Assembly (NCBI GenBank): GCA_026387575.1 | Contig: JAPLLK010000083.1 | Coordinates: 1-35,632, forward strand | Direction of reading: 5' to 3' | Length of the DNA: 35,632 nt | DNA from: Nitrospirota bacterium | Lineage (GTDB): Bacteria > Nitrospirota > Thermodesulfovibrionia > Thermodesulfovibrionales > UBA1546 | Part shown: piece after piece, positions 204 to 35,632 of the stretch | How positions within the stretch are numbered: position 1 is the stretch's first letter | Layout of the letters: every line of letters starts with the position of its first letter | Translations under genes and position numbers: made by a program | The notes under the pieces: generated by a model | What the model was told of the DNA's origin: nothing | Seen by the model: the letters and a program-made list of their open reading frames with translations, nothing else | The model's database searches: none

Positions 204-800
204 ATGAAAAAATTCACTCTCTTTTTATGTATCACAGTGTTACTCCTTTCCGCATGTGGCACCATTGATATGCGGAAAATTTCGGTTGAGCCAAAAATCT
301 CGACGGAGAATATGAAGAAAAGTTCCCTGAAAGCGGGGCTTCTTCTCAATGACCGGCTCACCAGTTACAAGTACGCATTTGAGACGGGTAAACAAGTGTT
401 CTTGATGGCGAATGTGAAGGGAGAAATAGATGTCGGCAAGAATCTGTCCCAAGCCCTTTACGGGATTGTCTCCAGCAAATTCGGAAACGTCGCCGTTGCT
501 CGCGATGTAAGCGAAATCCACGATGTCGACCTTTATTTTGTTCCCCGGATCAAATCCTTCAAGTATTCGCCCCCTTTTACCGGGATGGGTTCTCATATCG
601 CTGCTGTGGAACTGGAAACGGAAATCTTCGCCGGGGATGGACGGCGGCAGCGCAGTTTCATCGTCGAGGCTGATGGGAGCAGAAGCATGTTAAATCAATT
701 CAAGATGGAAACGAACTATGATATGGCGCACTACGCGGTAAACGAGGCCATAGACAAGCTCCTTAAGGAATTTTCCAGGAAGCTTGATGAACTTTATTGA
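204..800 (+). CDS. Putative outer-membrane lipoprotein of unknown function
   Basis: A 198-residue protein. I choose ATG 204 because it is preceded by AAGGGG with good spacing and begins directly with a lipoprotein signal peptide; the frame is open further upstream to 129. The peptide MKKFTLFLC... ends in the lipobox LSAC with the acylated cysteine at residue 18. The residue after the cysteine is Gly, not Asp, so by the E. coli rule outer-membrane sorting is expected. The mature part has mixed alpha/beta character and no catalytic motif I recognise. It ends 25 bases before the TPR-CHAT lipoprotein gene, so the two are probably one transcript and may act together in the periplasm. A small family of bacterial lipoproteins accompanies surface or envelope TPR proteins, but I cannot place this one. 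Confidence 0.8.
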   Translation: MKKFTLFLCITVLLLSACGTIDMRKISVEPKISTENMKKSSLKAGLLLNDRLTSYKYAFETGKQVFLMANVKGEIDVGKNLSQALYGIVSSKFGNVAVARDVSEIHDVDLYFVPRIKSFKYSPPFTGMGSHIAAVELETEIFAGDGRRQRSFIVEADGSRSMLNQFKMETNYDMAHYAVNEAIDKLLKEFSRKLDELY

Positions 801-3450: not shown

Positions 3451-3487
3451 AAACACTACCCTTCGGGCTTCTTTTACAACTGGGACG

Positions 3488-4120
3488 TTAAACACATGTC
3501 GTCGTATCCTGATGTTCCTCTCCCTGCTTCTCCTGAAAGAACATCTCCGGTGACTGTATACTCTGTATAAACATAGGCAAAAGAAAAGACGATACGATAT
3601 TTACCCTTCCCCAAAAGCCCTTTGATTCAGTATTGTTCTTATGATTCCTGTAATTCTCTCCCATATAGTCCTTAAGCCTTGGAAAACACTTAAGGGTTAA
3701 CCCCATTACGGAAAAAAAATCACCAACAGGCATGCCTATCTTTTCAAGAGGACTGAGGGTTTTCCTGAGAGCTTCTACCATAACATCAATAGGTGTTGTT
3801 GCTGTAAGTATCTTTGCTCCTGCGACCATAAAAAATATTCGCAGCGTCCTTACTGCGGCAAGACGGAGTCCTTCCTCTGTGATTACTATAGAACCGATGC
3901 TGTATAAAATCTTTCCATGGCTGAAAAACACATTACTAAGAAAAGTGAATAGAAGAAAGAAGGTTACAGTTACCCATCCTTTTTTTATTAACGCAAAAGG
4001 GATCCTTATCAGCAAAAGCAAAATGAAAAACAGTACTAAGGCATAGAGCGGAAGACTTTCCATTAAAAACAGGGTAATAATAAAAACTACGTACAGAATG
4101 ATTTTTGTTTCGGAAGACAA
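3488..4120 (-). CDS. EcfT/CbiQ-type transmembrane protein of an ECF transporter
   Basis: 210 residues, mostly hydrophobic in the first 110, giving about four or five membrane helices, then a cytoplasmic helical part containing 'RKTLSPLEKIGMP' and 'LTLKCFPRLKDY'. This layout matches the EcfT/CbiQ family, the scaffold subunit of energy-coupling-factor vitamin or metal importers; the conserved helical coupling region follows the pattern 'RtLsPlkkigxP'. The start appears to be TTG at 4120, two bases after the amidase stop, with GGCGGA serving as ribosome site inside the end of the amidase gene, so translation is likely coupled. No ATPase (EcfA) or substrate-binding S component is visible nearby, making it an orphan here. 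It may borrow ATPases encoded elsewhere. Confidence 0.75.
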   Translation of the reverse strand: MSSETKIILYVVFIITLFLMESLPLYALVLFFILLLLIRIPFALIKKGWVTVTFFLLFTFLSNVFFSHGKILYSIGSIVITEEGLRLAAVRTLRIFFMVAGAKILTATTPIDVMVEALRKTLSPLEKIGMPVGDFFSVMGLTLKCFPRLKDYMGENYRNHKNNTESKGFWGRVNIVSSFLLPMFIQSIQSPEMFFQEKQGEEHQDTTTCV

Positions 4121-16469: not shown

Positions 16470-19187
16470 TTAGAACGCATGCCCGATACTGAAATGCACT
16501 TCTCCACTGCTTTCACCTTTTTCTCTGTTCAGTTTATGGCCATAGTCAATCCTCAGAGGGCCCACGGGCGTATTGTATCTTATGCCTGCACCGGCAGTAT
16601 ATTTCATCTCTGAGAACTTTATATCGCCGGGTTTCCTCCAAACATTGCCGCCGTCAAAAAATGTTACGAACCCGAAACTCTTACCGATATATGTCCTGAG
16701 TTCAAGATTCGTAAGGACATAGGCATTCCCGCCAGTGGGAGAGCCGTTAGCACCCTTGGGCCCAAGCGTATCCTGTTCATATCCGCGCACTGTAGTCCTG
16801 CCACCGAGAAAAAACCTCTCCACAAGCGGGAGATCTGTAGTATCGTTAAAACCATACGCCATACCGCTTTTTAAAGATACCGCAACAACAAAATATTTGC
16901 TTAACTCTTGGTAAACACTTCCGTTGACTATTGTCTTTACAAAATCCGTTTCTGACAGAAGGTATCCCGATGCGGTTTTCACGGATATCCCTGCAAGCAC
17001 GCCTTTTCTGGGGTCAAACGGATTGTCCCTCGTATCATAGGCTATGCCCGGCCTTATCCCACTGATAGCGACCGTCCCGCTATCTTCCTTCGTGAGGATA
17101 ACATCGGGCTTCACCTCAAAAGTTTTGACTAATGAAAAATCATAAAAAATCTCGCCTTTCACCCTTTCGCTGAATTTCTTCTCAATGCCTACGCTCGCAG
17201 TGTGCCTACTCAGTTTATAGCGCGTCTCACCGGTCTCTATGGTTTTTTCTGTCCTTTCTTCTTTGATAAGAAATACCTTAAAGGGAAGAGGGTTACCTAA
17301 AAACCACGGCTCAGTATAATTCAATATATAGCGCTGCTCAATTGAACTGACCTCGGTCCTGAATGATAGCTGCCTATTCATTCCAAAAAGATTCCTGTAG
17401 CTTACATCAAATGACGCCCTGTACTGCTCATAATCCCCATATCCGACGCCAAATTCAACAGCCCCTGCATTCCCTTCTTTCACCTTAACGTGAACATTCT
17501 TCACATCCCCTTCTTTTTCTATCGCATCCACATCCACATCGGTAAACAAACCCAGCTTATAAAGCTTCTGGCGCGTCCTTGCGAGAAGATAAGGATTAAA
17601 AGGAGCGCCGTTTTCGTAGGGCAATTCTCTCTTTATTACCTCATTCTTTGTCTCCGCATTGCCGCTTATTACTGTTTTCCCGAACAATGTTAGTTTCCCT
17701 TCATCAATCTCAAAAATAACCTTCACCCCTTTTTCTCCGGTTTCCTGCTTTATATCAACCTTTGAGTCAATAAAACCGTTAGACCAATATAGGTCAATAA
17801 TCCTGTGCCTTGCATCCGATATATCAACTTCATTGTAAGGAGCCCCTGTTTTTATCCTGACAGTATTTATTATTTCTTTTTTTGAGATAAAAATCGCTCC
17901 CTTTATCTCAATCCCTTCTATTAAGGTCTTTACGCCTTCTTTAATTTTTATTATAATGTCCGCCCTGGAATCTTTTACTGCAATTCTGACATCATCTATC
18001 ACCACGTTCAGATATCCGAGCGCATTGTAAAGCTCTATTAATATTGCTTTGTCCAACTCTATAAGGTCTGGATTGTACAGCTTCTTTTCCTTTAGGAGCA
18101 TTACATCTTTCAGATTTTTTTCAGATATGGTTATGCCGGTAAAAGTTACAGAATTGACAATAACCTCGCTCCCTTCAAAGATAAAAAACCGGACAGTAAC
18201 TGTGTCCTTGTCTGATGTTATAACAGGCGCAACCTGTGCAAAAGGAAAACCCTTGGAGTGGTATAAAGACACAATCCTTGATATTGCCTCTTCAACAAGG
18301 TCATCCCTGAAGTCTTCAGCATCAAAAAACGGCGTCTCTTTAGTAAGAGCCTTTGAATTCAAGACAGAGTTGTTTTCAAACACAACTTCAAGCTTTTTAC
18401 CCGGGTCTATGTTAATGCCAAGATTGCCATTGCTGAAAGTATAGGGGCCGACAACAGGTTTAAGAAAATTATTTTTCTTATAATGAAGCCTTATCCTGTC
18501 TATCTCTTTTCTTAACTTAACCTGGTCATAGATATCGCCTTCCTCAATTTTAATTAATTCTTTCGCTTCCTCGGGCCCGATAATTTTAATGCTTTTTATT
18601 ATCTCAGGCATCCCCTCATCTATCGTAAGTAAAAGATTCACCCTGTAGGGCGTGCCGGTCTTCTCTACAGCGAGTTTTATATCTGCATGGGAGAATCCCC
18701 TTTCAGACAATTCATTCTTGAGCTCCTTTGCAGCACCTTCCATACGGTCATATCGCATAATCTGATCTTCTTTTAATGGAAAATGATTTTTTATTGTCTT
18801 CTTTGACAGGCGTTGATTTCCGGCAATAACAATTTTCTTTATTATATCTCTCTCCCGGACCTTTACCCTTATGAAGGTTCTGTCTTCATTATTAACTTCA
18901 ACAGATATGTCCTCAAATATCCCCTTGAGAAACGCCAATTTCAACCAGGCGCGGACAGATGAAGGGTTAAAGACATCACCAATCTTTATGTTTAAAATAT
19001 CCAGAAGTTCTTCGCTCTTCATGGAATACAGTCCCGAAATATCAATTTTACTGACTGCAACGTATGGTGTCTCAGCAGCTGTAACAGAGGGATTAGCAAG
19101 AAATGGCGTGGAAATAAAAATCAGAAATGATAAAAAAATGTTTTTTATCATTCTTCTGCGTTTATCAATCTGCCATAAGCATTTCAT
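16470..19187 (-). CDS. Omp85/BamA-TamA family outer-membrane assembly protein with about seven POTRA domains
   Basis: 905 residues from ATG 19187, which lies just beyond the tamB stop; the frame continues upstream to 19256 inside tamB and another ATG exists at 19151. A hydrophobic signal peptide (IKNIFLSFLIFISTPFLA) follows a basic leader. I count about seven POTRA repeats in the first two thirds (each beta-alpha-alpha-beta-beta, ending in patterns such as 'VRERD', 'TIDEG', 'KIKEG', 'EIDEG', 'KVKEG'), then a 16-strand type barrel with the Omp85 signature VRGYEQDTLGPKG and an aromatic C-terminus (HFSIGHAF). BamA has five POTRA, TamA three. Its partner is tamB directly upstream, so a TamA-like role (beta-barrel insertion or lipid traffic) is likelier than BamA. 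Confidence 0.92.
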   Translation of the reverse strand: MKCLWQIDKRRRMIKNIFLSFLIFISTPFLANPSVTAAETPYVAVSKIDISGLYSMKSEELLDILNIKIGDVFNPSSVRAWLKLAFLKGIFEDISVEVNNEDRTFIRVKVRERDIIKKIVIAGNQRLSKKTIKNHFPLKEDQIMRYDRMEGAAKELKNELSERGFSHADIKLAVEKTGTPYRVNLLLTIDEGMPEIIKSIKIIGPEEAKELIKIEEGDIYDQVKLRKEIDRIRLHYKKNNFLKPVVGPYTFSNGNLGINIDPGKKLEVVFENNSVLNSKALTKETPFFDAEDFRDDLVEEAISRIVSLYHSKGFPFAQVAPVITSDKDTVTVRFFIFEGSEVIVNSVTFTGITISEKNLKDVMLLKEKKLYNPDLIELDKAILIELYNALGYLNVVIDDVRIAVKDSRADIIIKIKEGVKTLIEGIEIKGAIFISKKEIINTVRIKTGAPYNEVDISDARHRIIDLYWSNGFIDSKVDIKQETGEKGVKVIFEIDEGKLTLFGKTVISGNAETKNEVIKRELPYENGAPFNPYLLARTRQKLYKLGLFTDVDVDAIEKEGDVKNVHVKVKEGNAGAVEFGVGYGDYEQYRASFDVSYRNLFGMNRQLSFRTEVSSIEQRYILNYTEPWFLGNPLPFKVFLIKEERTEKTIETGETRYKLSRHTASVGIEKKFSERVKGEIFYDFSLVKTFEVKPDVILTKEDSGTVAISGIRPGIAYDTRDNPFDPRKGVLAGISVKTASGYLLSETDFVKTIVNGSVYQELSKYFVVAVSLKSGMAYGFNDTTDLPLVERFFLGGRTTVRGYEQDTLGPKGANGSPTGGNAYVLTNLELRTYIGKSFGFVTFFDGGNVWRKPGDIKFSEMKYTAGAGIRYNTPVGPLRIDYGHKLNREKGESSGEVHFSIGHAF

Positions 19188-19203
19188 TTTGCATTCGCCT
19201 TTT

Positions 19204-22200
19204 TTATTTAAATTCAAATCTGAACTTAATATCTCCGCCAACGCTGCCTTTTTCATCCCTCACGCCAATCAGTGAGACATTCTTATCAAGGATATACTCA
19301 AGCTTGAGCACCCGTTCCTCGGTAGAGCCCACGGCAGATGTGTAAGTTACAAAAAGTTTATCGCCTAAAAGCCTCTTTGATGCGGTAAGCCTCGGACCTA
19401 CCGTGCCTGTAGACTTGGACACATAAGGGTCTACCTGAACCCTGTCAAGCCCTATTATATTTTTTAACCTGTCTTCAAAAACATCCTGAACCTTGCCTGT
19501 CAGAAATGAAGCAGCCTCGCCAGCTCCAATTCCTCCCTCAAGTCCCTTTAATTGTTTTCCTATCTGTCCCACGGTAAGCAGGCTGAGTATATCCGTCTCA
19601 TCAAGCGGCGGGTCAGAAACAAGGGAGAGGTTAAAACGTTCCAGTTGTCCTTCAAGGTTCAGCCTGATATTATACCCTTTCACTACCGTCTGTGCCACAA
19701 TTTCCATTACAGGATTTATCTTGTTCGGGTCAGTAAAATCTGCGCTTGCGTTCAATATCCTGAATTCAGTGTTCCTGAAGTAAACCTTGCCCTCTTTGGA
19801 CTCAATTCTTCCAAAAAGAAGCGGCTGTCCTATTGTTCCTTTCAAAACCATATCCACCTTTAATGGCGCACGCGCTATATTATTGTCCACAATAATATTT
19901 TCTGCTCCGTATATCTTCACATTTAATACTGTTTTTTGTATTCCTGTCTGTTCACCCCTCGGTCTTTCTGATGTCTTTGCCTTAAGAAGCCAGCTTTTCC
20001 ATTCTACCCTCTCCCTGTACCTTGCCCTGTTCACCCTCACATCGCCGGTGACATTCTGCGCTTCAAGAGTCCCCTTATAGAGAACATTGCCGTGAAAATT
20101 AGCAGAGAAATCTTTGGATATAGAAGTTGTAATGTTATTTAGTTTTGTATCGAGATAAAACCTCTTCAGGTTAAACCCGCTGAGATAGACAACGCCTGAC
20201 GCATCTATATCCCCGCCTCCAATTTTACCGTAGAGTTTACGTATAATAATCTTGCTGCCCTCAAAATTAAAATATCCGCTTATTGAGCTGACCCGCTGAT
20301 GCATATCCTTTAATCCGAATAGCCCGTTGCTCACATTGAGATTGCCATTTATCTGTGGGTTGTCCCATTTCCCTCCAACAGTCAGGGTAAAATCAGCATC
20401 GCCCCTTAGAACACCAATCTTATTTGAAAATCCCTTCAGAGGGGAAAGCTCTAAGCTGCCTTCAAGGGATATATCGTACTCTCTGCCGATTTCCATACCG
20501 CCTCGCATTATGAAAGAGGCATTTCCGCTCCGCATTGAAAATGCAGAAAATGACATCCTTTTATTATCAAATTTAAATTTTATATCTGAATCATTGGAGA
20601 AGCTATGTCCATAAAGAGCCGCGTTAACCTGATTTAAAACTGCCGAAGCAGAAAAGGTTTTTCTGGTTCCTGACATAACCGCATTTCCCTTCATATTGAC
20701 TACAAGGTCATCAGGAACATCCTTCAGCAAAGATGACAGAAGAAAGTCATATCTGCCTGATGTCATGGTAAGCTCCGCGCTCCACGGCAGTAAATCACTC
20801 AGATATCCCTTTCCTTTCATCACCACCTTCTCATTGAATAGCGCCGCGGTGAACAGAATATCTTTATTTTTAATAGAGGCATTTATGGCACCTGTGCCAA
20901 GCGGTTTGCCTTTAAATGTTCCGCCTGATAATTTCCCGTCTATAGTTATGGAGGGATTGTCAAAAGTGCCTGAGCCTCGTGCTTTTACATTCAATACCGC
21001 GTCATCAGGCATGCCTCTCAGCCCCATATCTTTTAAGAATAACTTGCTGCCTGATGCGCTGAAAGAAAACTTTTCCATACCTGAAATCTTTCCCTCAACA
21101 GTCATAGCAGAGCCGCCTTTTTTAAGGATAGCTTTTTTTACGGTAATATCTTTATTCCTGTAAAGAAAATCTGTTGATAGAGAGTCAGCTGAGAATTTAT
21201 AAGCCTCTGCATTCATTACAGCCGCAGAACCTGAATATTCAGGATAGGACCCATTGCCAGCTATCTTAAGGTCTGTATTCAGTTTGCCCTTCAATGGAAG
21301 TTTTTTATGAAAGGCTGCCACCAGCCTTTCAATATCGGCGCCTCTTAACGATACTGCAAGATTGTAATCAGGCTGTTTCACATCGAAAACATTCTTTGCT
21401 GCATTAAATTTTACATATCCCTTTGCTGTGTGCTCCTCATCCTTTGATTTAACTGACAAACCTTTTATCTCAAGAATATTTTTTCTGTAGGACAGCTCGC
21501 CTGAAACTGTATCAAGACCGTAACCTTTTAGGGATGCGGCTGTCATCCTCACTGCACCGTCTATCAGCGGGTCATCAAATTTCCCGGTTATTGTGCCTGT
21601 AAACTCGCCTGTACCCTTCAGAAGGTCAAAATAAGGAGATATGAGGTCTGCGATGTCATGCGTTATAAGTCTGCCTTTAAGGTTGAGTACTGAAGCAGAC
21701 ATGGCAACTGTCCCGTTTATTTCCAGCGCTGACTTTTCAGTTCTGACCTCTGCATTGGAAAGGGAAAGCATTTCACCCTGCACCTTAAATTCCCCTTTTA
21801 TCCTCTTTACTCTTCCTATTAAATCACTGCCTGTCTGCTCGCTGTTGTAACTAAACCATCCGGACGGATTAAATTCGCTGTCAGAAGAAAAAAGCTCTCC
21901 CTTTACCTTGCCCTTCGGAGCTTCTATATCCAGACCGACAAGCTTTAATGCCGGCTGACTGTCAACATCCGTAAAATTCACCCTCACTGAATAATGATCA
22001 ACTTTCGGAATTTTTAAAGCTGCCTCTGCATCTGCCCTGCCATTGTAAAGAGCTGCCTTACCGTTTTTAAAACTCAAGACTCCGTTGCTGTAAACTATAT
22101 CGCACTTGAGGCTGTCCACAGCAACATCAAAAAGATTTCCTTTTTTTAACGTTGCATCCGCTTTGCCTGTAATTTTTGAACCCGCCCCGCTTATCTTTCC

Positions 22201-23133
22201 GTCAAAATTCACCCATCCTTCAACTCTCTCTTTTACTTTGAGAAGCTCCATCAAAGACTGAAGATAAAAATTACCGCTGACTCTGATATCCACAAAAGGA
22301 GCGCCTGCTCCAAATTTTATATCGCCCTTTGCAAATATCTTTCCCTCACCGCTCCTCTTCAGTCCGAAAACTTTTTTTACATAATCAGCAGAAAGTTCAA
22401 TAGCTGTCTTTATATCGCCTTTTCCTTCAGCCGAATAAAAACCACCTGCCTTCAGTTCTGAATCATAAGCCCTGAGAGTGACGTTCTTTATTTCAATTCC
22501 GTCTTTCCTGAAAAACAATACGGCATCTGCGCCAACTTTCAATTCAGGGAAATCCCTGATATTGGAGATAAATTCTTTTATGTTAGCTTTCATTCGCGTA
22601 GTTTCACCTAACAGAATCTCACCGCTCAATCCTTTGCCTCTTAAAATAGCGCCATATGCAGGATCATAAAAGCCAAATCCTCCATCACGCACTTCTATTA
22701 CATCCACTACAACCTTCATCTTCTTGGGGTCTTCCTTAATCAAATACTCTTTAACCCTCTTGATGATGTCATCCGCCTGTCCCCTGTCAGTCCATAACTC
22801 AGGCTCTTTCAGCACTATTCTTTTCAGCGCTATTTTTTTTCTCCGTATTGCGGACAGTTTCGGATATCCCTTTATCCTGTCAACAGTCAAAACCCTGTTG
22901 CCCTCATCATCAAACAACTTCACCCCCCTTGCCTCAATGAATAACGGAAATAAATTAAGGTATATTGACTGGGCTATTACCTTGCGGCCTGTCATGTTCT
23001 CAAGTTCAGGCAGTATTATTTTCTTTAATGCATTTGATATGTGCGGGCCGCGGGAAACAAAGATAATTATCCCTATGAGCAGTACACCTGCGGAAAAATA
23101 TGCTATTCGTTTTATCCTTTTAGATTTTTCCAT
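19204..23133 (-). CDS. tamB: TamB (AsmA-like/DUF490) inter-membrane protein
   Basis: 1309 residues. One N-terminal membrane anchor (residues about 8-26: IKRIAYFSAGVLLIGIIIFV) followed by a very long beta-rich periplasmic rod, as in TamB/YhdP-type proteins thought to carry phospholipids between the membranes. The C-terminal DUF490 part is recognisable: 'NPVMEIVAQTVVKGYNIRLN', DPPLDETDILSLLTVGQIGK, and a final beta-strand ending FRFEFK that would dock on the Omp85 partner. Repeated 'Gxaxlkxgxl'-type strands run throughout. It overlaps glnD by 22 bases and sits immediately before the Omp85 gene, the canonical tamA/tamB relationship but in the reverse order to E. coli. Confidence 0.93.
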   Translation of the reverse strand: MEKSKRIKRIAYFSAGVLLIGIIIFVSRGPHISNALKKIILPELENMTGRKVIAQSIYLNLFPLFIEARGVKLFDDEGNRVLTVDRIKGYPKLSAIRRKKIALKRIVLKEPELWTDRGQADDIIKRVKEYLIKEDPKKMKVVVDVIEVRDGGFGFYDPAYGAILRGKGLSGEILLGETTRMKANIKEFISNIRDFPELKVGADAVLFFRKDGIEIKNVTLRAYDSELKAGGFYSAEGKGDIKTAIELSADYVKKVFGLKRSGEGKIFAKGDIKFGAGAPFVDIRVSGNFYLQSLMELLKVKERVEGWVNFDGKISGAGSKITGKADATLKKGNLFDVAVDSLKCDIVYSNGVLSFKNGKAALYNGRADAEAALKIPKVDHYSVRVNFTDVDSQPALKLVGLDIEAPKGKVKGELFSSDSEFNPSGWFSYNSEQTGSDLIGRVKRIKGEFKVQGEMLSLSNAEVRTEKSALEINGTVAMSASVLNLKGRLITHDIADLISPYFDLLKGTGEFTGTITGKFDDPLIDGAVRMTAASLKGYGLDTVSGELSYRKNILEIKGLSVKSKDEEHTAKGYVKFNAAKNVFDVKQPDYNLAVSLRGADIERLVAAFHKKLPLKGKLNTDLKIAGNGSYPEYSGSAAVMNAEAYKFSADSLSTDFLYRNKDITVKKAILKKGGSAMTVEGKISGMEKFSFSASGSKLFLKDMGLRGMPDDAVLNVKARGSGTFDNPSITIDGKLSGGTFKGKPLGTGAINASIKNKDILFTAALFNEKVVMKGKGYLSDLLPWSAELTMTSGRYDFLLSSLLKDVPDDLVVNMKGNAVMSGTRKTFSASAVLNQVNAALYGHSFSNDSDIKFKFDNKRMSFSAFSMRSGNASFIMRGGMEIGREYDISLEGSLELSPLKGFSNKIGVLRGDADFTLTVGGKWDNPQINGNLNVSNGLFGLKDMHQRVSSISGYFNFEGSKIIIRKLYGKIGGGDIDASGVVYLSGFNLKRFYLDTKLNNITTSISKDFSANFHGNVLYKGTLEAQNVTGDVRVNRARYRERVEWKSWLLKAKTSERPRGEQTGIQKTVLNVKIYGAENIIVDNNIARAPLKVDMVLKGTIGQPLLFGRIESKEGKVYFRNTEFRILNASADFTDPNKINPVMEIVAQTVVKGYNIRLNLEGQLERFNLSLVSDPPLDETDILSLLTVGQIGKQLKGLEGGIGAGEAASFLTGKVQDVFEDRLKNIIGLDRVQVDPYVSKSTGTVGPRLTASKRLLGDKLFVTYTSAVGSTEERVLKLEYILDKNVSLIGVRDEKGSVGGDIKFRFEFK

Positions 23134-26226: not shown

Positions 26227-27681
26227 CTATCTATACTCCAGCCCCTCAATGCTTATCTTACCTATAACAGACAATATCTGCATCTGCTTGTCTATCTCCC
26301 CTGTTGTAATCCTTATGTGCGCTGCATCTGCCGGAAATTGCCCGAGTGTAGGGTCAATCGCAATCCACTGCCCTATAAATATCTCAGGCCATGCATGATA
26401 ATAAAAATAGCCGTCCTTATACGTAAGCCCGAGGGCAATCCTTGTTGGAATCTCAGCTGCACGCGCCAGAGCAGTATAGAGTGTCGTATGTTCATTACAG
26501 TCGCCCCTCCTTGATTTCAGCACCTCTGTTGCCATCGGGATTGTTATTGCCGGAGTCTTCTTGATATTCCTGTAGACCCACTCATAAATAAGCCTTGCCT
26601 TCTTCAGCGCATCTCTTTCATCTTTTACAATCTCTTTTGCCATAGAAATAATCTCAGGGTCTTTTGCTTGAATAAACACTGTTTCCTTTAAATATTTATC
26701 AAGAGACTTTAAACTCTCAGCTTTGAACTTTGGACTTTGAACTTCCTCTTTTCTTGTCTCAAGCACATCTCCCTTAAGATTCTGCCTTCCGCCGTCAAGT
26801 TCAAGAACCTTCAAATCAATTCCTGAGAGCTTTACCCTGAGATATTTTGCATCGGAGGGGAGTTTTAAATTAAACGGCACTGCAACCTGCGTAATAATGT
26901 CCATGGAGGGTTTCCCTATTTGCATTGCATCATCTTCGGTTTCTTTAATCAATACAAATTCCAAAGGACTTTCCTCTCTTAACACCTCACCCTTTTCAGT
27001 AAGCCATACTGAGAATTCAATTCCCTTAAACGACCCCTTCAGCCTGAAAACCTCACGCATAACATTCATTGACATTATCCGCTCTTTCCCTTCCACCTCA
27101 ACAAGAATGCGCTCCTGAGTCATAGTTATAGGGTCAATAACAGTCATGCTAAGTTTTCTGCCAAGTTTAATTCCCTCCTTAATAATATTAGGAATCACCG
27201 AGACATTAAGAGACAGCTCATCTTTCAAAGCAATCACCTGTTCAGATTTTGTACCGGCAGTCTCCATAGAGACATTAAGATTCTTACCATCCACCCTTCC
27301 CTTGATATTCATAGTCACATCAGAATTGAGCATAAAGTCAAAAGATTTAAGTTTTAAATCAGGATCAAGATATGCGCCGGTAAATGTATCTATATCTTTC
27401 AGGACATTCATAACATTGAGCCGCATCTTCATTTGTTCTGAAATTCTATATCCATCAGTTGTTTTTTCAACTTCCCTGTAAGAGTAACCTGTTTTTTCGC
27501 CCTTATAATAAAGTCCCATCCATTGTCCTTTGTACAGTTCTTCAGGGAAAACTTCTTTATTCATAGCATAATGCACAGCCTGATTTAATCCGTAATGCCT
27601 GAATAAAAGGAGAGCAGTCGCAGCAACCCATAAAACAATAATGGCGGTATAGAAAAATCTTTTAGGTGTGATATTTACCAT
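26227..27681 (-). CDS. Membrane-anchored transglutaminase-like protease-fold protein
   Basis: 484 residues. One N-terminal membrane segment (FFYTAIIVLWVAATALLLF), a large periplasmic beta-rich region of unknown type (about 45-330), and a C-terminal transglutaminase-core domain with the full triad: Cys395 (RRGDCNEHT), His429 (FYYHAW) and Asp443 (IAIDPT). Bacterial members are usually thought to be peptidases or cross-linkers in the envelope; substrate unknown. A short direct-repeat stretch (26707-26745) is embedded in frame and encodes 'EVQSPKFKAESLKSL', in the linker before the catalytic domain. It stands alone, divergent from the formate dehydrogenase operon. Confidence 0.88.
   Translation of the reverse strand: MVNITPKRFFYTAIIVLWVAATALLLFRHYGLNQAVHYAMNKEVFPEELYKGQWMGLYYKGEKTGYSYREVEKTTDGYRISEQMKMRLNVMNVLKDIDTFTGAYLDPDLKLKSFDFMLNSDVTMNIKGRVDGKNLNVSMETAGTKSEQVIALKDELSLNVSVIPNIIKEGIKLGRKLSMTVIDPITMTQERILVEVEGKERIMSMNVMREVFRLKGSFKGIEFSVWLTEKGEVLREESPLEFVLIKETEDDAMQIGKPSMDIITQVAVPFNLKLPSDAKYLRVKLSGIDLKVLELDGGRQNLKGDVLETRKEEVQSPKFKAESLKSLDKYLKETVFIQAKDPEIISMAKEIVKDERDALKKARLIYEWVYRNIKKTPAITIPMATEVLKSRRGDCNEHTTLYTALARAAEIPTRIALGLTYKDGYFYYHAWPEIFIGQWIAIDPTLGQFPADAAHIRITTGEIDKQMQILSVIGKISIEGLEYR
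26721..26744. repeat. Short direct repeat within the transglutaminase gene
   Basis: CTTTGAACTT occurs at 26721-26730 and again at 26735-26744, separated by TGGA. Such 'TTTGAACTTTGGACTTTGAAC' strings are low-information dispersed repeats elsewhere in bacterial genomes. Here the stretch is open in the coding frame and encodes a Lys/Ser-rich linker. Confidence 0.55.
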
Positions 27682-28118: not shown

Positions 28119-31100
28119 ATGGCTATATCAAGACGTGATTTCTTGAAGTTCTCAGGCGGCACTGCTGTTGCGGCCGGGGCTGCAAGCCTTGGCCTTGCAC
28201 CTGAAGAGGCAGCAGCAAAGGAAATTGAACTCCGCACAAAAGGGGCAAAGGAGACAAAAACTATCTGTCCTTACTGCTCAGTAGGGTGCGGTATTGTTGT
28301 CCACACAAAAGATGGCAAGGTCATCAACACAGAAGGTGACACAGAGCATCCAATTAGCGAAGGAACCCTTTGCTCCAAAGGATCATCGCTCTATCAGATT
28401 ATCAATAATCCTGCGCGGCTTACAAAGCCAAAATACCGCGCTGCGGGCGCCTCTGAATGGAAAGAGGTTGAATGGGACTGGACGCTTGACGAGATCGCAA
28501 AAAGAATAAAAGCTACACGTGACAAGACTTTTAAAACTACCTCAAAATCAAAAATGAAAGAAAAACAGCCTGACGGCACAGAGAAAGAAGTAGAGAAGGA
28601 TTTTGTAGTAAACAGGACAGACGGAATTTCCCATGTCGGAAGCGCAGCACTTGACAACGAAGAATGCTACATGCTTCAGAAACTACTCCGCTCATGGGGC
28701 CTTGTCTATATAGAACATCAGGCACGAATATGACACTCCGCTACTGTAGCGGCTCTGGCAGAGTCGTTTGGTCGCGGTGCGATGACAAATCACTGGATTG
28801 ATTTCAAAAATGCAGATGTGATTCTTGTAATGGGCTCAAACCCAGCAGAGAATCATCCTATATCAATGAAGTGGATAATGAAGGCAAAGGAACAACGTGG
28901 CGCAAAACTCATTGTCGTTGACCCGCGCTTTACAAGAACAGCTTCAAAGGCAGACATATACGCTCCGATGCGTTCAGGGGCTGACATCGCTTTCCTTGGA
29001 GGTATGATTAAGTACATCATTGACCATAACCTCCACTTTAAAGAATACGTTACGAACTATACCAATGCAGCATATCTTGTAAACCCTGATTTTAAGGGCC
29101 CGGGAGAACTTAATGGCATATTCTCCGGATACGATGAAAAGGCAAGGAACTATGACAAAAAGACATGGTCTTTTCAGATGGATGAAAATGGACTTCCGAA
29201 AAAAGACATGACTCTAAAAAATCCGGCCTGCGTATTCCAGCTTATGAGGAAACATTACTCAAGATATACGCTTGATAAGGTCTAGTTGTACGCGATGGGC
29301 TGGACCCAGCATACCGTTGGCACGCAGAACATCAGGGCAATGACTATAATTCAACTCCTCCTCGGAAACATTGGAATGGCAGGAGGCGGAATCAACGCGC
29401 TCAGGGGAGAATCCAATGTTCAGGGTTCAACAGACCATGGGCTTCTCTTCCATATATTGCCAGGATATATGCCTGTTCCTTCAGCATCGATAACTGACCT
29501 GCAGACATATATTGAGAAACACACTCCAAAGACAAAAGACCCAAAGAGCGTGAACTGGTGGAGCAACAGAAACAAGTACATTATCAGCTATCTCAAGGCG
29601 ATTTATGGAAGCAAGGCAGTGAAAGAAAATGATTTTGGATATTCATGGCTTCCAAAGCTTGACGAGGGTCAAAACGGCTCATGGCTTGTGCTCTTTGACC
29701 ATATGCTTAAGGGGAAATTTGAAGGGTTTTTTGCATGGGGACAGAACCCTGCATGTTCTGGAGCGAATGCGAATAAGACACGAAAGGCTCTCGCCAAACT
29801 AAAATGGATGGTCAATGTCAATCTCTTTGACAATGAGACAGGCTCGTTCTGGAGAGGACCCGGCATGAATCCAAAGGAAATTCAGACAGAGGTATTCATG
29901 CTTCCCTGCGCCTCCTCGGTTGAAAAGGAAGGGAGCATCACAAATTCAGGAAGGCTTGCCCAGTGGAGATATAAGGCCATCGAGCCTATCGGAGAATCGA
30001 AACCCGACTCTGAGATAATGAACGAACTTTACTTCAGGGTAAAGAAGCTCTATCAGAAACAAGGCGGCAAATTCCCTGATCCGATCATCAATCTTACCTG
30101 GAATTACGGTGAGAAAGACGCCGGCGGTAAGATCAAGGAAGTAGACACCCATAAAATTGCAAAAGAGATTAACGGATATTACCTTGAAGACCTTGTAGAC
30201 AAAAAAGTCACTCCTCCAAAGACAATCGGCAAAAAAGGACATTTATGCACAAACTTTGTCACATTACAGGCAGACGGCACAACATCCTGTGGATGTTGGA
30301 TTTTCAGCGGAAGTTATACTGAGAAAGACGATAAGATTGTAAATATGATGGCAAGAAGAGGCAAGAAGGATATTGGCGACCTTGGTCTTTATCCTGAGTG
30401 GGCGTGGTGCTGGCCTATAAACAGGAGGATAATTTACAACCGAGCATCAGTTGACCTGAATGGAAAGCCGTGGGATCCAAAGAGAACAGTTATTAAATGG
30501 AATCCCAATAAGCTCGATCCTAAGACAAAACAGACAGCTCCTGGATGGGAAGGAGATGTGCCTGATGGACCTGCGCCTCCTATGGCTGATGAGAAAGCAG
30601 GGAAATATCCGTTTATCATGAAAACAGACGGCAGGGGCGCAATATTCGGACCGGGTCTTGTTGACGGTCCGTTCCCTGAACATTATGAGGCATTGGAATG
30701 TCCTATTCAGGAAAATCCGCTCTCCAGTAAGCACAGGATAAGTCCTACTGTAAAACTGTTTTATGGTGTTAAGGGGCCTCATGATGCACCTGCAGAAAAA
30801 GGTGGTCTACTGCCGGAAGACGTATTCTTCTCATGCGACATAAGGTATCCATACGTTGCGACTACATATCGTGTATCAGAGCACTGGCAGACAGGGGTTA
30901 TGACGAGACACCAGCCATGGTTACTTGAATCCATGCCCCAGCAATTTGTTGAGATGAGCGAAGAGCTTGCAAAAGAAAAGGGCATTAAATCAGGAGACAA
31001 AATAAAGGTTAAATCTGGACGTGGTGAGATTATGGCAGTTGCGGTAGTAACTAAGAGATTCAAACCCTTTAAAGTAGTGGGAAGCACTGTTCATCAGGTA

Positions 31101-31268
31101 GGCCTTCCATGGTGTTTTGGCTGGCAGTATCCTGAGGATGGCAGCGGAGGAGACAGCTCTAATCTTCTTACGCCGACTATCGGAGATTCAAATACACTGA
31201 TACCTGAGACAAAGGCATTTATGGTCAATATTGAAAAGGTCAAGGAGGAGATATATGGCAAAAAATGA
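28119..31268 (+). CDS. Formate dehydrogenase alpha subunit, selenocysteine type, with an additional in-frame TAG
   Basis: Read as one gene of about 1,049 codons. Oxidises formate to CO2 at a molybdenum/tungsten bis-pterin site in the periplasm. A twin-arginine signal (SRRDFLKF, residues 4-11) directs export; a [4Fe-4S] site uses Cys50, 53, 57 and 85. TGA 28731-28733 (codon 205) falls exactly at the selenocysteine of FdnG/FdoG: QARI-U-HSATVAALAESFGRGAMTNHW. Downstream, codon 389 is TAG (29283-29285), in the same frame, between SRYTLDKV and LYAMGWTQHTVG; about 29 residues present in FdnG at this place are absent. If real, the TAG disrupts the enzyme; otherwise it is an assembly collapse. The rest (to YGKK) aligns throughout with FdnG-type enzymes. 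The 3' end overlaps the beta-subunit gene by 14 bases. Confidence 0.9.
28744..28761 (+). promoter_or_regulatory. Candidate bacterial SECIS hairpin for formate dehydrogenase alpha
   Basis: After the TGA at 28731, CTGTAG (28744-28749) can pair with CT-GCAG (28755-28761, one bulged G), including a U-G pair, closing the loop CGGCT. The loop guanines lie 17-18 bases after the TGA, the place where the SelB-binding loop sits in E. coli fdhF/fdnG. An alternative fold, CCGCTAC/GTAGCGG at 28738-28752, would compete. Hand-folded only. Confidence 0.45.
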
Positions 31269-32046
31269 AAAAAAACCCATAGGTGCATTGATAGATTTAA
31301 CCAAGTGCATCGGCTGCAGGGGTTGCCAAATTGCATGTAAAAGCTGGAATAACCGCGCTGTAAAGAAAACGGTAATGACAGGGAATTTCACGAACCCCAT
31401 TGACCTTAACTCCGAGACATATACGATGATCAAATATGTCGAGAAGGAGCAGGACGCGCTCATGGAGTGGGATTTTATTAAGGTACAGTGCATGCACTGT
31501 AAAAATCCTGCCTGTGTCTCTGCATGTCCTGTTGGAGCGTTCCAAAAGAGTCCTGAAGGACCGGTAATGTATGAACCCGAGAAGTGCATAGGATGTCGTT
31601 ATTGCATGATGGCCTGTCCTTTCCAGATTCCAAAATATGAATGGGAGAAAGTATCTCCTGTCGTTCAGAAATGTACATTCTGTGCTGAAAGGATTTCCGA
31701 AGGATTAATCCCTGCATGTGTAAAAACATGTCCTCCAAAGGCTATTATCTTTGGAACTTACGAAGAGATCCTGGCTGAGGCTGAAAAGAGGATTAAGGAA
31801 AATCCAAAAAAATATGTAAACCATATCTATGGTAAGGAAGAAGCAGGTGGCACTTCATGGCTCTATCTGTCTTCTGTCCCATTTGAAACGCTCGGCTTCA
31901 AGATGAATATCCCGAAGAGGCCGTTGCCGGATCTCACGTGGGCATCGCTTTCTAAAATACCTGTGACAGTAGGCAGTCTGGCATTAATCCTCTCTGCAAT
32001 AGCATATATAAGGAACCGCGGAGAAAACAATAAGGAGGAAAAATAA
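31255..32046 (+). CDS. Formate dehydrogenase beta subunit (four [4Fe-4S] ferredoxin-like)
   Basis: 263 residues. ATG 31255 follows AAGGAGGAG with good spacing inside the end of the alpha gene; the frame is open earlier but without a start signal. Four cysteine clusters carry electrons from alpha to the membrane subunit: CIGCRGCQIAC, CMHCKNPACVSACP, CIGCRYCMMACP and CTFCAE...CVKTCPPKAI. A single C-terminal membrane helix (about 235-253, VTVGSLALILSAIAYI) anchors it, as in FdnH. No signal peptide: it should be carried across the membrane with the Tat-targeted alpha subunit. Its stop overlaps the next ATG by one base (TAATG). Confidence 0.95.
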   Translation: MAKNEKKPIGALIDLTKCIGCRGCQIACKSWNNRAVKKTVMTGNFTNPIDLNSETYTMIKYVEKEQDALMEWDFIKVQCMHCKNPACVSACPVGAFQKSPEGPVMYEPEKCIGCRYCMMACPFQIPKYEWEKVSPVVQKCTFCAERISEGLIPACVKTCPPKAIIFGTYEEILAEAEKRIKENPKKYVNHIYGKEEAGGTSWLYLSSVPFETLGFKMNIPKRPLPDLTWASLSKIPVTVGSLALILSAIAYIRNRGENNKEEK

Positions 32047-33182
32047 TGGCTGCATACAAAGAAAGAAAAAATGTATCATTTTTTTCCAGGGGCACAATGA
32101 TTCTCCTAATACTTCTTGGAATCGCTGCTTTTGCAGCCCTTTACCGATTTACATATGGGTTAGGAGCAGCAACAGATATGAGTGATAAGGTGCCTTGGGG
32201 ATTGTGGGTTGCATTTGATGTGCTTGCTGGTGTTGCACTTGCTGCTGGAGGATTTGGCATAACTGCAGCTGTCTATATCTTTAACATGAAAAAGTACAAA
32301 CCAATCGCACGGCCTGCTATACTTACTGCCTTTATCGGCTACCTGATAGTCATAATCGGGCTTGTAATTGACATAGGTCAGCCAACAAGGTTCTGGCATC
32401 CGCTTGTAATGTGGCAGCATAAGTCTATCATGTTCGAGGTCGTATGGTGCATATCACTCTACACTACGGTGCTCGCAATCGAGTTCACACCACCGGTTCT
32501 CGAAAGGCTTAGATGGACAGGCCTTTTGAAGATAATTAAATTCTTCACATATCCGATTGTGATAGCAGGAATTATCCTGTCTTTTCTGCATCAGTCTTCT
32601 CTTGGAGCATTCTTCCTTATAATGCCCAGCAAGCTTAATGCATTGTGGTATTCTCCCATAATGCCTCAGATGTTTTATATATCTGCAATTGCTGTAGGTC
32701 TTTCAATGGTATCAATTGAATCCATTGTAAGTGCATGGGCATTTAAGAGAGAGTATGAGCCAGGGATTATTAAAGGGCTTGGTAAAGGTGTAGCAATAAC
32801 CCTTCTTGTTTATCTTGTTGTGAAGATTGCAGATCTTATTGTAAGAGGTAAGTTCTCTATGGTATTTGATGGAAGCACAGCGAGCAGATTTTATCTTATA
32901 GAGATATTTATGGGTGTGATAATTCCAATGATACTTCTTTCAACCCAAAAAATACGGGAATCTATAGGAGGCACCTTTATATCAGCAATGCTTGTTGTAG
33001 GCGGAGTTCTCATGAACAGGTTCAATACGAACTTTTTCTCGCAGGTAGGTAATGGAGTTTCGTACTTCCCCACATGGAGAGAGTTTGCAATAACAATTGG
33101 ATTGGTATCATTAGGGATTATACTTTACAGGCTTGCTGTCATATTCCTGCCGGTATTCGAAGAGGCAGAAGCCGAACACTAA
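32046..33182 (+). CDS. NrfD/HybB-type membrane quinone-reactive subunit of formate dehydrogenase
   Basis: 378 residues with about ten membrane helices and no haem-ligating b-type pattern, so this complex uses a NrfD/PsrC/HybB-like subunit in place of the FdnI cytochrome b. Diagnostic stretches: YRFTYGLGAATDMSDKVPWG, 'WVAFDVLAGVALAAGGFG', DIGQPTRFWHPLVMWQHKS. HybB-like subunits pass electrons to menaquinone. It overlaps the beta gene by one base and is followed by a strong terminator, so alpha-beta-gamma form the operon. Confidence 0.93.
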   Translation: MAAYKERKNVSFFSRGTMILLILLGIAAFAALYRFTYGLGAATDMSDKVPWGLWVAFDVLAGVALAAGGFGITAAVYIFNMKKYKPIARPAILTAFIGYLIVIIGLVIDIGQPTRFWHPLVMWQHKSIMFEVVWCISLYTTVLAIEFTPPVLERLRWTGLLKIIKFFTYPIVIAGIILSFLHQSSLGAFFLIMPSKLNALWYSPIMPQMFYISAIAVGLSMVSIESIVSAWAFKREYEPGIIKGLGKGVAITLLVYLVVKIADLIVRGKFSMVFDGSTASRFYLIEIFMGVIIPMILLSTQKIRESIGGTFISAMLVVGGVLMNRFNTNFFSQVGNGVSYFPTWREFAITIGLVSLGIILYRLAVIFLPVFEEAEAEH

Positions 33183-33237: not shown

Positions 33238-33828
33238 ATGAGAACAAGATTAAGTATAATTATTCTGCTTCTTGTTTATACAATTGCCCTTGCTGAAGAA
33301 CAGCGATATAACATACCTATTGGAAATTCTCCCCAAAAAGGCCCTGCAAATGCTCCTGTAACGATAATAGAATTCCTTGATTACCAGTGACCTCATTGCG
33401 CTGCGGCCGGTCCGGTCGTTGATAAACTGACAAGGGAATACAAGGACAAAATAAGGCTCATTGTAAAACATTATCCTTACAAATATAGAGACTTCTCGCA
33501 TATCGCAGCAGAGGCTGCAATGGCTGCCAATGACCACGGCAAGTTCTGGGAGATGCACCACCTAATGCTCAAGAAATCCCCCCAGCTTGACAGAGAAAGC
33601 CTTATTAAATATGCAAAAGAGATAAATCTGGACATAAAAGCCTTCACAGAATCTCTCGACAAGATGAAACACTCTGCAATAATAGAGCGGGATAAAAAAC
33701 TTGCAATTGAAATGGATTTATACAACACGCCTACGCTTTTTATTAACGGCAGAAAGGTCATAGGGAACAGGACTTATGAATATTTAAAGAAAATTATTGA
33801 GGAGGAGTTAAGAAATGCAAAAAAATAA
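33238..33828 (+). CDS. Selenocysteine-containing DsbA-like thiol oxidoreductase (U-P-H-C active site)
   Basis: 196 residues if TGA 33388-33390 (codon 51) is read as selenocysteine. ATG 33238 has CAAGGA upstream and starts a signal peptide (MRTRLSIIILLLVYTIALA). Then VTIIEFLDYQ-U-PHC: DsbA/Com1-type periplasmic proteins have 'DFQCPYC' here, so TGA replaces the first, nucleophilic cysteine of CxxC. After it the frame stays open for 145 codons with the family's helical insert (FSHIAAEAAMAANDHGKFWE), the cis-proline loop 'DLYNTPTLFINGRKV' and the C-terminal helix. A SECIS-like hairpin follows the TGA. Conventional calling would start at 33520 and lose the active site. It overlaps the cytochrome c peroxidase gene by 14 bases. 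Likely role: disulfide or peroxide redox chemistry in the periplasm. Alternative: a nonsense-mutated gene, less likely given the hairpin and its spacing. Confidence 0.88.
33403..33419 (+). promoter_or_regulatory. Bacterial SECIS element of the DsbA-like selenoprotein
   Basis: GCGGCC (33403-33408) pairs with GGTCGT (33414-33419; two G-U pairs), closing the five-base loop GGTCC at 33409-33413. In E. coli fdhF the SelB-contacting loop is GGTCT and begins 18 bases after the TGA; here it also begins 18 bases after TGA 33388-33390. Fold done by hand. Confidence 0.75.
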
Positions 33829-34996
33829 TAATATTGATAAGGTGATACAGAAGATGACATCTTCTGTCATTCCAGCTTGTCGGGAATCATTCTCCCGATG
33901 CTTCGGGATTCGGAATCGTAAGAAAGATTGCGGACAAGTCGGAATGACAATATATACATTCTTAATACTGTTTCTTTTTGTGTTCCAGTCGTCTTCCTAT
34001 GCAGGCCACTTTGAGCCCCTTAAATCAATCCCCGTGCCTAAAAATAATCCGCAGACACCAGATAAGATAGAACTTGGCAAAAAACTTTTCTTTGACAGAA
34101 GGCTTTCAGGCGACGGCACAATGAGCTGCGCAACATGCCATATGCCGGAACATGCATTCACAGACGGACAGGACATATCGTTAAGCTATCCGACAACAAA
34201 GAACTGGAGGAACTCTCTAACACTGATAAACGCTGCTTTTCAAAAACATCTTTTTCATGATGGAAGGGCTAAATCACTTGAAGAGCAGGCGCTCTTTCCA
34301 TTGATGTCTGCATTTGAGATGAACCAGAACCTTGACTTTGTTGAGGAGGAACTAAGAGTAGTGCCTGAATATGCTGAGGCTTTCAAGAAAATATTTGGAG
34401 GCGAGGTTACACGGGAGAGGATTGCCATGGCCATTGCATCATTTGAAAGGACTTTAATCTCTGTTAATTCACCGCTTGATAAATATCTCAATGGCGACAA
34501 AAAAGCCTTATCACAGGATGCAAAAAAAGGGCTTGAGATATTTAAAGGCAAGGGAAAGTGCGCTGACTGCCACTATGGAGTAAATTTAGCCGACGACAAA
34601 TTCTATGCATTGAATGTACTTGAAAACCCTGCCCTTCTGAATGATCCAAGGGTTACTGCGACAATGAGATTTGTGGCAAAGGTCTATCATTACAAAGACT
34701 ATAAAAACCTCAAGGAAGATCCCGGCAGATACCTGATTACAAAAAAGAAAAAGGACTGGAAAGCTTTCAGGACACCTACATTAAGAGATATCTCAAAGAC
34801 AGGCCCGTACATGCATAACGGAGTATTCAACACTCTTGATGAGGTCGTAGAATTTTTTAACATGGGCGGGGGCAAAGGGAATAAAGTTCTCAAGCCGCTG
34901 GGGTTAACGGATAATGAAAAAAAATACCTGAAGACATTTCTTGTTGAAGCGCTTACAGGAGAGGATATAGTTATAAAATATCCGCAGGTGCCCTGA
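33815..34996 (+). CDS. Di-haem cytochrome c peroxidase (MauG/CcpA family)
   Basis: 393 residues. Reduces hydrogen peroxide in the periplasm with electrons from cytochrome c. Two c-type haem sites: C105-ATC-H109 and C249-ADC-H253, in the usual two-domain layout; also LGKKLFFDRRLSGDGTMSC and TPTLRDISKTGPYMHNGVF, typical of the family. GGAGGAG sits ahead of ATG 33815, inside the end of the selenoprotein gene, so translation is coupled. The signal peptide (TIYTFLILFLFVFQSSSYAG) begins only near residue 44; residues about 17-44 are encoded by a dispersed inverted repeat. ATG 33944 is the alternative start but has no ribosome site. Pairing with a selenoprotein oxidoreductase suggests an oxidative-defence unit. 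Confidence 0.93.
   Translation: MQKNNNIDKVIQKMTSSVIPACRESFSRCFGIRNRKKDCGQVGMTIYTFLILFLFVFQSSSYAGHFEPLKSIPVPKNNPQTPDKIELGKKLFFDRRLSGDGTMSCATCHMPEHAFTDGQDISLSYPTTKNWRNSLTLINAAFQKHLFHDGRAKSLEEQALFPLMSAFEMNQNLDFVEEELRVVPEYAEAFKKIFGGEVTRERIAMAIASFERTLISVNSPLDKYLNGDKKALSQDAKKGLEIFKGKGKCADCHYGVNLADDKFYALNVLENPALLNDPRVTATMRFVAKVYHYKDYKNLKEDPGRYLITKKKKDWKAFRTPTLRDISKTGPYMHNGVFNTLDEVVEFFNMGGGKGNKVLKPLGLTDNEKKYLKTFLVEALTGEDIVIKYPQVP
33865..33949. repeat. Dispersed element with 17-base terminal inverted repeats in the peroxidase leader
   Basis: TGTCATTCCAGCTTGTC at 33865-33881 faces GACAAGTCGGAATGACA at 33933-33949, matching at 15 of 17 positions. Between them lies the hairpin CCCGATGCTTCGGG (33894-33907). 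The 85-base unit looks like a REP or MITE-like palindromic element. It is open in the coding frame and lengthens the N-terminus of the cytochrome c peroxidase by about 28 residues. Confidence 0.75.
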
Positions 34997-35202
34997 GTCT
35001 ACTTATAATACTTTTCTGGAGGCTGTATCTGTCTTTCAGCAATATTAAACTATGTTGCAATAGTGCAAATGTTAGTGCGATATACAAGGACATTATAAAT
35101 TCTTATGCGGGTCTATCCGCCACACTTTGTTGCGACTTCAGCCCCTATTCTGACAGACCCGTGAATCTTGCTTCAATCCAGCCACAGCCTCCCATGGCAT
35201 AG
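34997..35202. other. Intergenic region between convergent genes
   Basis: About 200 bases between the peroxidase stop and the endonuclease Q stop. I found no gene, no perfect terminator hairpin and no recognisable RNA. Weak dyads such as GCGGGTCTATCCGC (35107-35120) are present, without a T tract. Confidence 0.5.
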
Positions 35203-35631
35203 TTAAAACAACCTTGCCTGTCCTTTTGGCTTTTTCCTTTCAACTTCCTCAAATATCTTTATCTTGCCGTACTCTCCGTCAAAGCCGGGCGCTATGCTTA
35301 CCTTTCCTTTTCTCATCCGTGATATTGCCTCTGCAAGCTGAGGAGTGCCTGCGCTTTCAATCTCCTCTACGGTACAGTCCATGAGTATCTTAAATTCATT
35401 TCCGAGACTTTCAAGCAGCTTAAAATACTCATTTCTAACAGCTTTGCTGCTAACGCCTACTTTCACTGTCTCAGAAATAATCTCAGCGAGCGGGATAACG
35501 GAATAAAAAACAGGGGCATTTTTAGGTTTAAATCCGATTTTCCTGTCAGCAAGCTTATCTACCCTGTGCATAACTCCTATTGTCACTTTTTTCCCGCATA
35601 CAGGACATAAATAATTGTTCTTAATTGTCTC
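35203..35631 (-). CDS. Endonuclease Q, C-terminal part (gene continues past the window)
   Basis: 143 codons, open to the window edge, so the N-terminal PHP nuclease domain is outside. The visible part starts with a zinc-knuckle half, LCPVCGKKVTIGVMHRVDKL, then FKPKNAPVFYSVIPLAEII, 'VGVSSKAVRNEYFKLLES', and GFDGEYGKIKIF, matching the C-terminal region of EndoQ-type proteins. EndoQ cuts DNA 5' of deaminated bases (uracil, hypoxanthine) and abasic sites. The last residues are GQARLF; QARLF fits the Q-x-x-L-F pattern of beta-clamp-binding peptides. The family call rests on pattern memory of these motifs, not an alignment. Confidence 0.7.
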   Translation of the reverse strand, partial: ETIKNNYLCPVCGKKVTIGVMHRVDKLADRKIGFKPKNAPVFYSVIPLAEIISETVKVGVSSKAVRNEYFKLLESLGNEFKILMDCTVEEIESAGTPQLAEAISRMRKGKVSIAPGFDGEYGKIKIFEEVERKKPKGQARLF

Positions 35632-35632
35632 T

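Follow-up and report, generated by a model that had tools for sequence, protein, structure and literature searches.

A formate dehydrogenase gene with two in-frame stop codons raises the question of whether both codons are read, or whether one of them marks a gene that has been broken. The gene, fdhA, encodes the catalytic subunit and lies on a stretch of DNA of 35,632 nucleotides from a draft genome of a Nitrospirota bacterium (this whole stretch is called the window here; its features are collected in Table 1). The frame 28119-31265 is interrupted solely by a TGA at 28731 and a TAG at 29283, the latter position being referred to as the seam. Tat signal, Fe4S4, molybdopterin and dinucleotide-binding domains were found by Pfam searches. 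The protein matched D. gigas FDH (1h0h) best, followed by D. vulgaris FdhA, and E. coli FdnG (1kqf) was matched as well. The window resembles these periplasmic selenocysteine enzymes in domain order, Tat signal, selenocysteine, SECIS element and an adjoining fdhB, but differs from them in its 29 missing codons, the stop at the seam and a membrane partner of the NrfD type.

The first interruption had been predicted to align to selenocysteine, and the analysis bears this out. Nearly all relatives have TGA at the same position, and the DNA of the SECIS region behind it hardly varies across the 12 sequences that were aligned, the window included. The match to the SECIS model RF01989 covers the full model (1-59) with 30.2 bits and an E-value of 6e-4, under the gathering score of 63. 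Both tRNA-Sec (68.1 bits, also detected by ARAGORN) and SelB (387 bits) are encoded in the genome. Hence, because the codon aligns to the selenocysteine of solved formate dehydrogenases, is followed 3' by a SECIS_3 match and occurs in a genome with tRNA-Sec and SelB, the TGA is, as judged from sequence, a true selenocysteine codon. One FdhA relative, L108, carries cysteine instead of selenocysteine at the active site (about position 3340). Another FDH-like gene with an in-frame TGA is present on contig C48 of the same genome. Three forms of FDH are described as encoded by Thermodesulfovibrionales of the Lost City (PMC9469722).

Table 1. Features of the fdh locus in the window (strand as + or -; a dot where no strand applies)
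Feature	Position	Strand	Basis or remark
Transglutaminase-like gene	26227..27681	-	Left flank, common to G006 and G007
fdhA, formate dehydrogenase catalytic subunit, interrupted	28119..31268	+	Pfam PF10518, PF04879, PF00384, PF01568
SECIS element, SECIS_3-like	28728..28786	+	Rfam RF01989, hairpin
TGA, selenocysteine codon (from alignment)	28731..28733	+	Aligned to Sec (X) of D. gigas FDH 1h0h
TAG marking the seam; all relatives have 29 further codons (87 nt) here	29283..29285	+	
3' part of fdhA, open; directly past the seam its nearer relative is G009, from another genus of the same family, and not the genus mates	29286..31268	+	
fdhB, 4Fe-4S subunit, G009-type	31255..32046	+	Pfam; 73% to G009 versus about 36% to genus-mate fdhB
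NrfD-type membrane subunit	32046..33182	+	Pfam; 68% identity to G009
DsbA/thioredoxin-like ORF	33520..33828	+	72% to G009
MauG/di-haem cytochrome c peroxidase family gene	33815..34996	+	Pfam; 75% to G009
Dispersed repeat of about 175 bp with 29-nt inverted ends	35018..35192	.	Adjoins right flank
Conserved flank gene, 3' part, genus-type (423 aa in G006)	35203..35632	-	

The TAG is not a selenocysteine codon. According to the original prediction it sits where a segment of about 30 residues is absent, and the comparison with related genomes proposed there leaves the window as the only locus without this segment. Between DKV and LYAMGW the segment is present in 108 of 108 other loci showing the YAMGWTQ motif (some of these are the same contig from two collections, and duplicates were kept). 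We aligned 105 of the loci with the window, giving 106 rows and 93 distinct proteins; the window has a gap in 29 columns where none of the 105 other rows has one. Left out of the alignment were L099 and L108, whose nearest upstream stop lies beyond the distance filter, and L084, which the search pattern did not match, while L124 ends before the motif and was not scored. Several of the missing columns hold near-invariant residues (G 1.0, Y 0.99, T 0.99, T 0.98, G 0.98). From the TGA to the Tyr codon of YAMGW nearly all relatives have 213-215 codons, and the window has 186, which is 215 less 29. One TAG replaces 30 residues, a net loss of 87 nt; the stop and the gap are a single lesion, as had been proposed. 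In the alignments to 1h0h, D. vulgaris FdhA and 1kqf the best match starts anew at the TAG each time. In the structure predicted by AlphaFold for L047, whose FdhA is intact, the residues missing in the window (389-417) comprise the end of a helix (385-392), another helix in full (396-407) and the beginning of a strand (416-420); only local secondary structure was used from this model, with block pLDDT of 75-89 over residues 381-420 and a mediocre mean of 65.6. With a TAG at codon 389 and 29 codons absent, the FdhA of the window does not form a complete catalytic chain. The missing segment was not found elsewhere in the genome (best match E 0.07, 42% over 26 residues).

It might be asked whether the TAG is used, be it by read-through, by being assigned an amino acid or by a restart of translation from the TTG at 29286 behind an AAGG. 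The TTG follows the stop directly with the AAGG 5 nt upstream, and both parts of fdhA show purifying selection: comparing the window with four genus mates gave dN/dS values of 0.060-0.079 upstream of the TAG and of 0.055-0.082 downstream, slightly higher than the 0.046-0.069 and 0.056-0.069 observed among six genus pairs. However, RF1 is present in the genome (537 bits), the best PylS match reaches 27.6 bits at a cut-off of 178, and no CUA anticodon was found by ARAGORN among 42 tRNA places plus tRNA-Sec in a draft that is 92% complete, so that this absence is not proof; tRNA-Tyr was not seen among the tRNAs of this draft either. TAG terminates 4 of the 21 ORFs of the window, AAGG also occurs inside the coding sequence of intact relatives, and a read-through product would be predicted from the L047 model to lose core structure. 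We therefore rejected UAG recoding by pyrrolysine or a suppressor tRNA, given RF1, the PylS score under the cut-off, the lack of a CUA anticodon and the use of TAG as an ordinary terminator, and consider any use of this TAG highly improbable. Little sign of relaxed selection was seen in dN/dS or at conserved positions: of the columns that agree in 95% of rows or more, the window departs at 4, compared with a median of 4 and a mean of 4.5 in the 105 others. Similar dN/dS on both sides and no excess of odd residues suggest that the lesion is recent, or absent from the organism itself.

The original prediction had also considered a collapsed assembly. The DNA around the gap was compared side by side for the window and 14 relatives. 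In 6 unbroken relatives inspected by eye no direct repeat beyond chance was found at the two breakpoints, and no microhomology was visible there, which speaks against slippage and against repeat collapse alike. A collapsed repeat was set aside as unlikely for this reason.

At the seam the affinity of the gene changes as well. Left of it the nearest relative of fdhA is a genus mate in every 60-residue bin; over residues 421-600 it is not, and over residues 661-780 and 841-960 it is a genus mate again. The margin by which similarity to genus mates exceeds that to non-genus relatives drops from 0.105 (residues 351-400) to -0.012 (residues 401-450), while in the control L047 it stays at about 0.05-0.065 over residues 401-550. 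Measured over 30 codons, the seam takes rank 16 among 989 positions for such a drop, with the top five all at residues 45-49. For each of the two parts of fdhA we computed a quick tree from the window together with the 34 distinct relatives nearest to it. In the 5' tree the window groups with its genus mates (SH-aLRT 98), nested inside four of them, and in the 3' tree it groups with G009 (SH-aLRT 99); by path length the nearest row of the 3' tree is the genus mate L048 (0.42) versus 0.44 for G009. An AU test rejected the grouping of the window with G009 for the 5' part (p 0.022); for the 3' part, its grouping with genus mates was not rejected (p 0.187 with 5 rows, 0.178 with 4). MaxChi placed a break at the seam (29276-29291 and 29282-29294) in 2 of 12 triples; controls showed heterogeneity in genus mates too. 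Since the strongest break lies elsewhere in the other 10 triples and residues 661-780 and 841-960 are genus-like, the mosaic does not divide neatly into two parts. The nearest candidate donor in our sequence comparison has about 68-89% protein identity, and none closer was found. Base composition was uninformative, with the cassette at percentile 0.944 of 72 stretches and a segment outside the tract (17000-22700) at 0.986. Taken as a whole the mosaic is supported by these comparisons, its precise edges less so. A similar shift is seen in the fdhA of G003 (L048), whose 3' part moves in affinity to L046 (SH-aLRT 92); this hints at repeated exchanges in fdhA.

The genes behind the seam differ from those of the genus, too. 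It had been predicted that the downstream codons and the beta and gamma genes remain intact. This holds for the frame, which is open over 29286-31265, and for the operon, but beta and gamma are not those of genus mates: the order is fdhB-nrfD-dsbA-mauG in the window versus fdhB-cytochrome b561 in the genus. G006, G003 and G004 bear another fdhB (about 36% to that of the window) followed by a cytochrome b561 gene, and the fdhB of G006 includes the FDH-N transmembrane domain; in G002 the contig ends directly after a genus-type fdhB. A close nrfD was not found in 7 genus mates (best match E 2e-11, 33%). E. coli FDH-N uses a cytochrome b.

Both outer flanks are of the genus type. The right end is 94% identical to the region downstream of fdh in G006 and continues on contig C71, for which reason we rejected a gross chimeric contig between organisms. 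The end of C71 (32103-33085) and the end of the window (35203-35632) overlap by about 140 positions of the flank gene. From sequence, C71 and the contig of the window (C27) are probably neighbours. Between these flanks the genus is variable: in G007 the transglutaminase gene adjoins the flank gene and fdh is lacking, G001 keeps only 123 bp of the transglutaminase region, pieces of mauG are left in G005 and 54 bp of its end in G006. As fdh is absent or a remnant in some genus mates, the site is a labile one, repeatedly gained, swapped or lost.

The mauG remnants of G005 and G006 also suggest that mauG is ancestral at this site. Hence it might be possible that a vertically inherited gene simply suffered a deletion of 87 nt, and that the genus mates, not the window, swapped the operon; vertical descent would lead to roughly the distance seen between the window and G009 in the 3' tree. 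However, the four genus mates within which the 5' tree nests the window all have the other operon type, so that a swap in the lineage of the window needs fewer events, and the deletion would have to coincide with the swap point. We regard this possibility as rather improbable.

A single join of a resident 5' fdhA to a different 3' fdhA is the simplest single account of the stop, the gap and the change of affinity together. Thus the interrupted fdhA has the look of a scar, left either by recombination or by assembly of the genome, and not of a novel mode of decoding stop codons. We tentatively favour the scar of a real recombination join and would give it a probability of roughly 0.4. A tract of donor DNA, with the order 3' fdhA-fdhB-nrfD-dsbA-mauG, would have entered the resident fdhA, coming from a relative of the same family. 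One end of the tract may have paired in the mauG remnant or the flank, and the other would have been joined imprecisely within fdhA with the loss of 87 nt, leaving the TAG; such a codon would arise where the T of a resident codon is followed by the AG of a donor GAG. Translation would be expected to stop at codon 389, so that no functional catalytic subunit is expected, and since the rest of fdhA is intact the event would be recent.

In the cell this could be an imprecise crossover as in homology-facilitated illegitimate recombination (HFIR), in which one side is homologous and the other imprecise with loss of resident DNA; the junctions mostly show 3-10 bp of microhomology (PMC3240628). One homologous side together with an imprecise side that loses DNA would yield such a seam. 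However, the loss in the window is small, and no microhomology is visible at the breakpoints in the 6 relatives, which are not the true parents; this is of no help to an HFIR reading.

In the computer the same join could be a haplotype switch: the assembler or gap closer would have joined, inside fdhA, two strains that live side by side, of which one has the genus-type operon at this locus and the other the G009-type, each with an intact fdhA in reality. The seam coincides with the change of affinity, the remainder of the operon is intact, and the genome is a draft of 98 contigs in whose remainder neither a second intact fdhA nor a genus-type fdhB was found. A further draft record, L099 from Desulfobacterales, has an apparent fdhA frameshift between the selenocysteine site and the YAMGW motif (about 3342-4003). 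On the other hand, joins made by a de Bruijn assembler normally lie where the sequence is identical and do not cost 87 nt, the 6 relatives compared have no repeat or shared sequence at the breakpoints, the window is without any N, and the outer flanks fit one locus. We consider an assembly join a serious possibility, if a doubtful one. In that case a stop plus a gap in a draft genome can mark a switch of strains and should not be read as recoding.

If the recombination scar is real, respiratory FDH operons would be swapped and lost inside one genus, with neighbours that have another membrane module, scraps or an empty site. One might go further and suppose that the electron-transfer module of the selenocysteine FDH is exchanged as a cassette within the genus by recombination inside the conserved middle of fdhA, which seems somewhat unlikely to us: the 5' catalytic part would stay, the switch would affect 3' fdhA and fdhB together with the membrane partner, which is either cytochrome b561 or NrfD, and the window would be one failed swap with a scar of 87 nt. 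Hybrid genes broken in this way at a labile operon belong to a kind already known. Bacterial pseudogenes with a premature stop have an in-frame stop in an otherwise conserved gene; unlike these, the window has its stop at a mosaic seam and no other lesion. Our literature search found no paper on a deletion or recombination pseudogene of a selenocysteine fdhA like this one.

The repeat of about 175 bp between mauG and the right flank is MITE-like, with inverted ends that are 76% complementary. At least 10 further copies with 74-80% identity are present in the genome of the window (G000), on contigs C30, C54, C29, C86, C75, C23, C90, C83, C3 and C20. The repeat was also found in opposite orientation in G006, and at 11793-11976 of L177.
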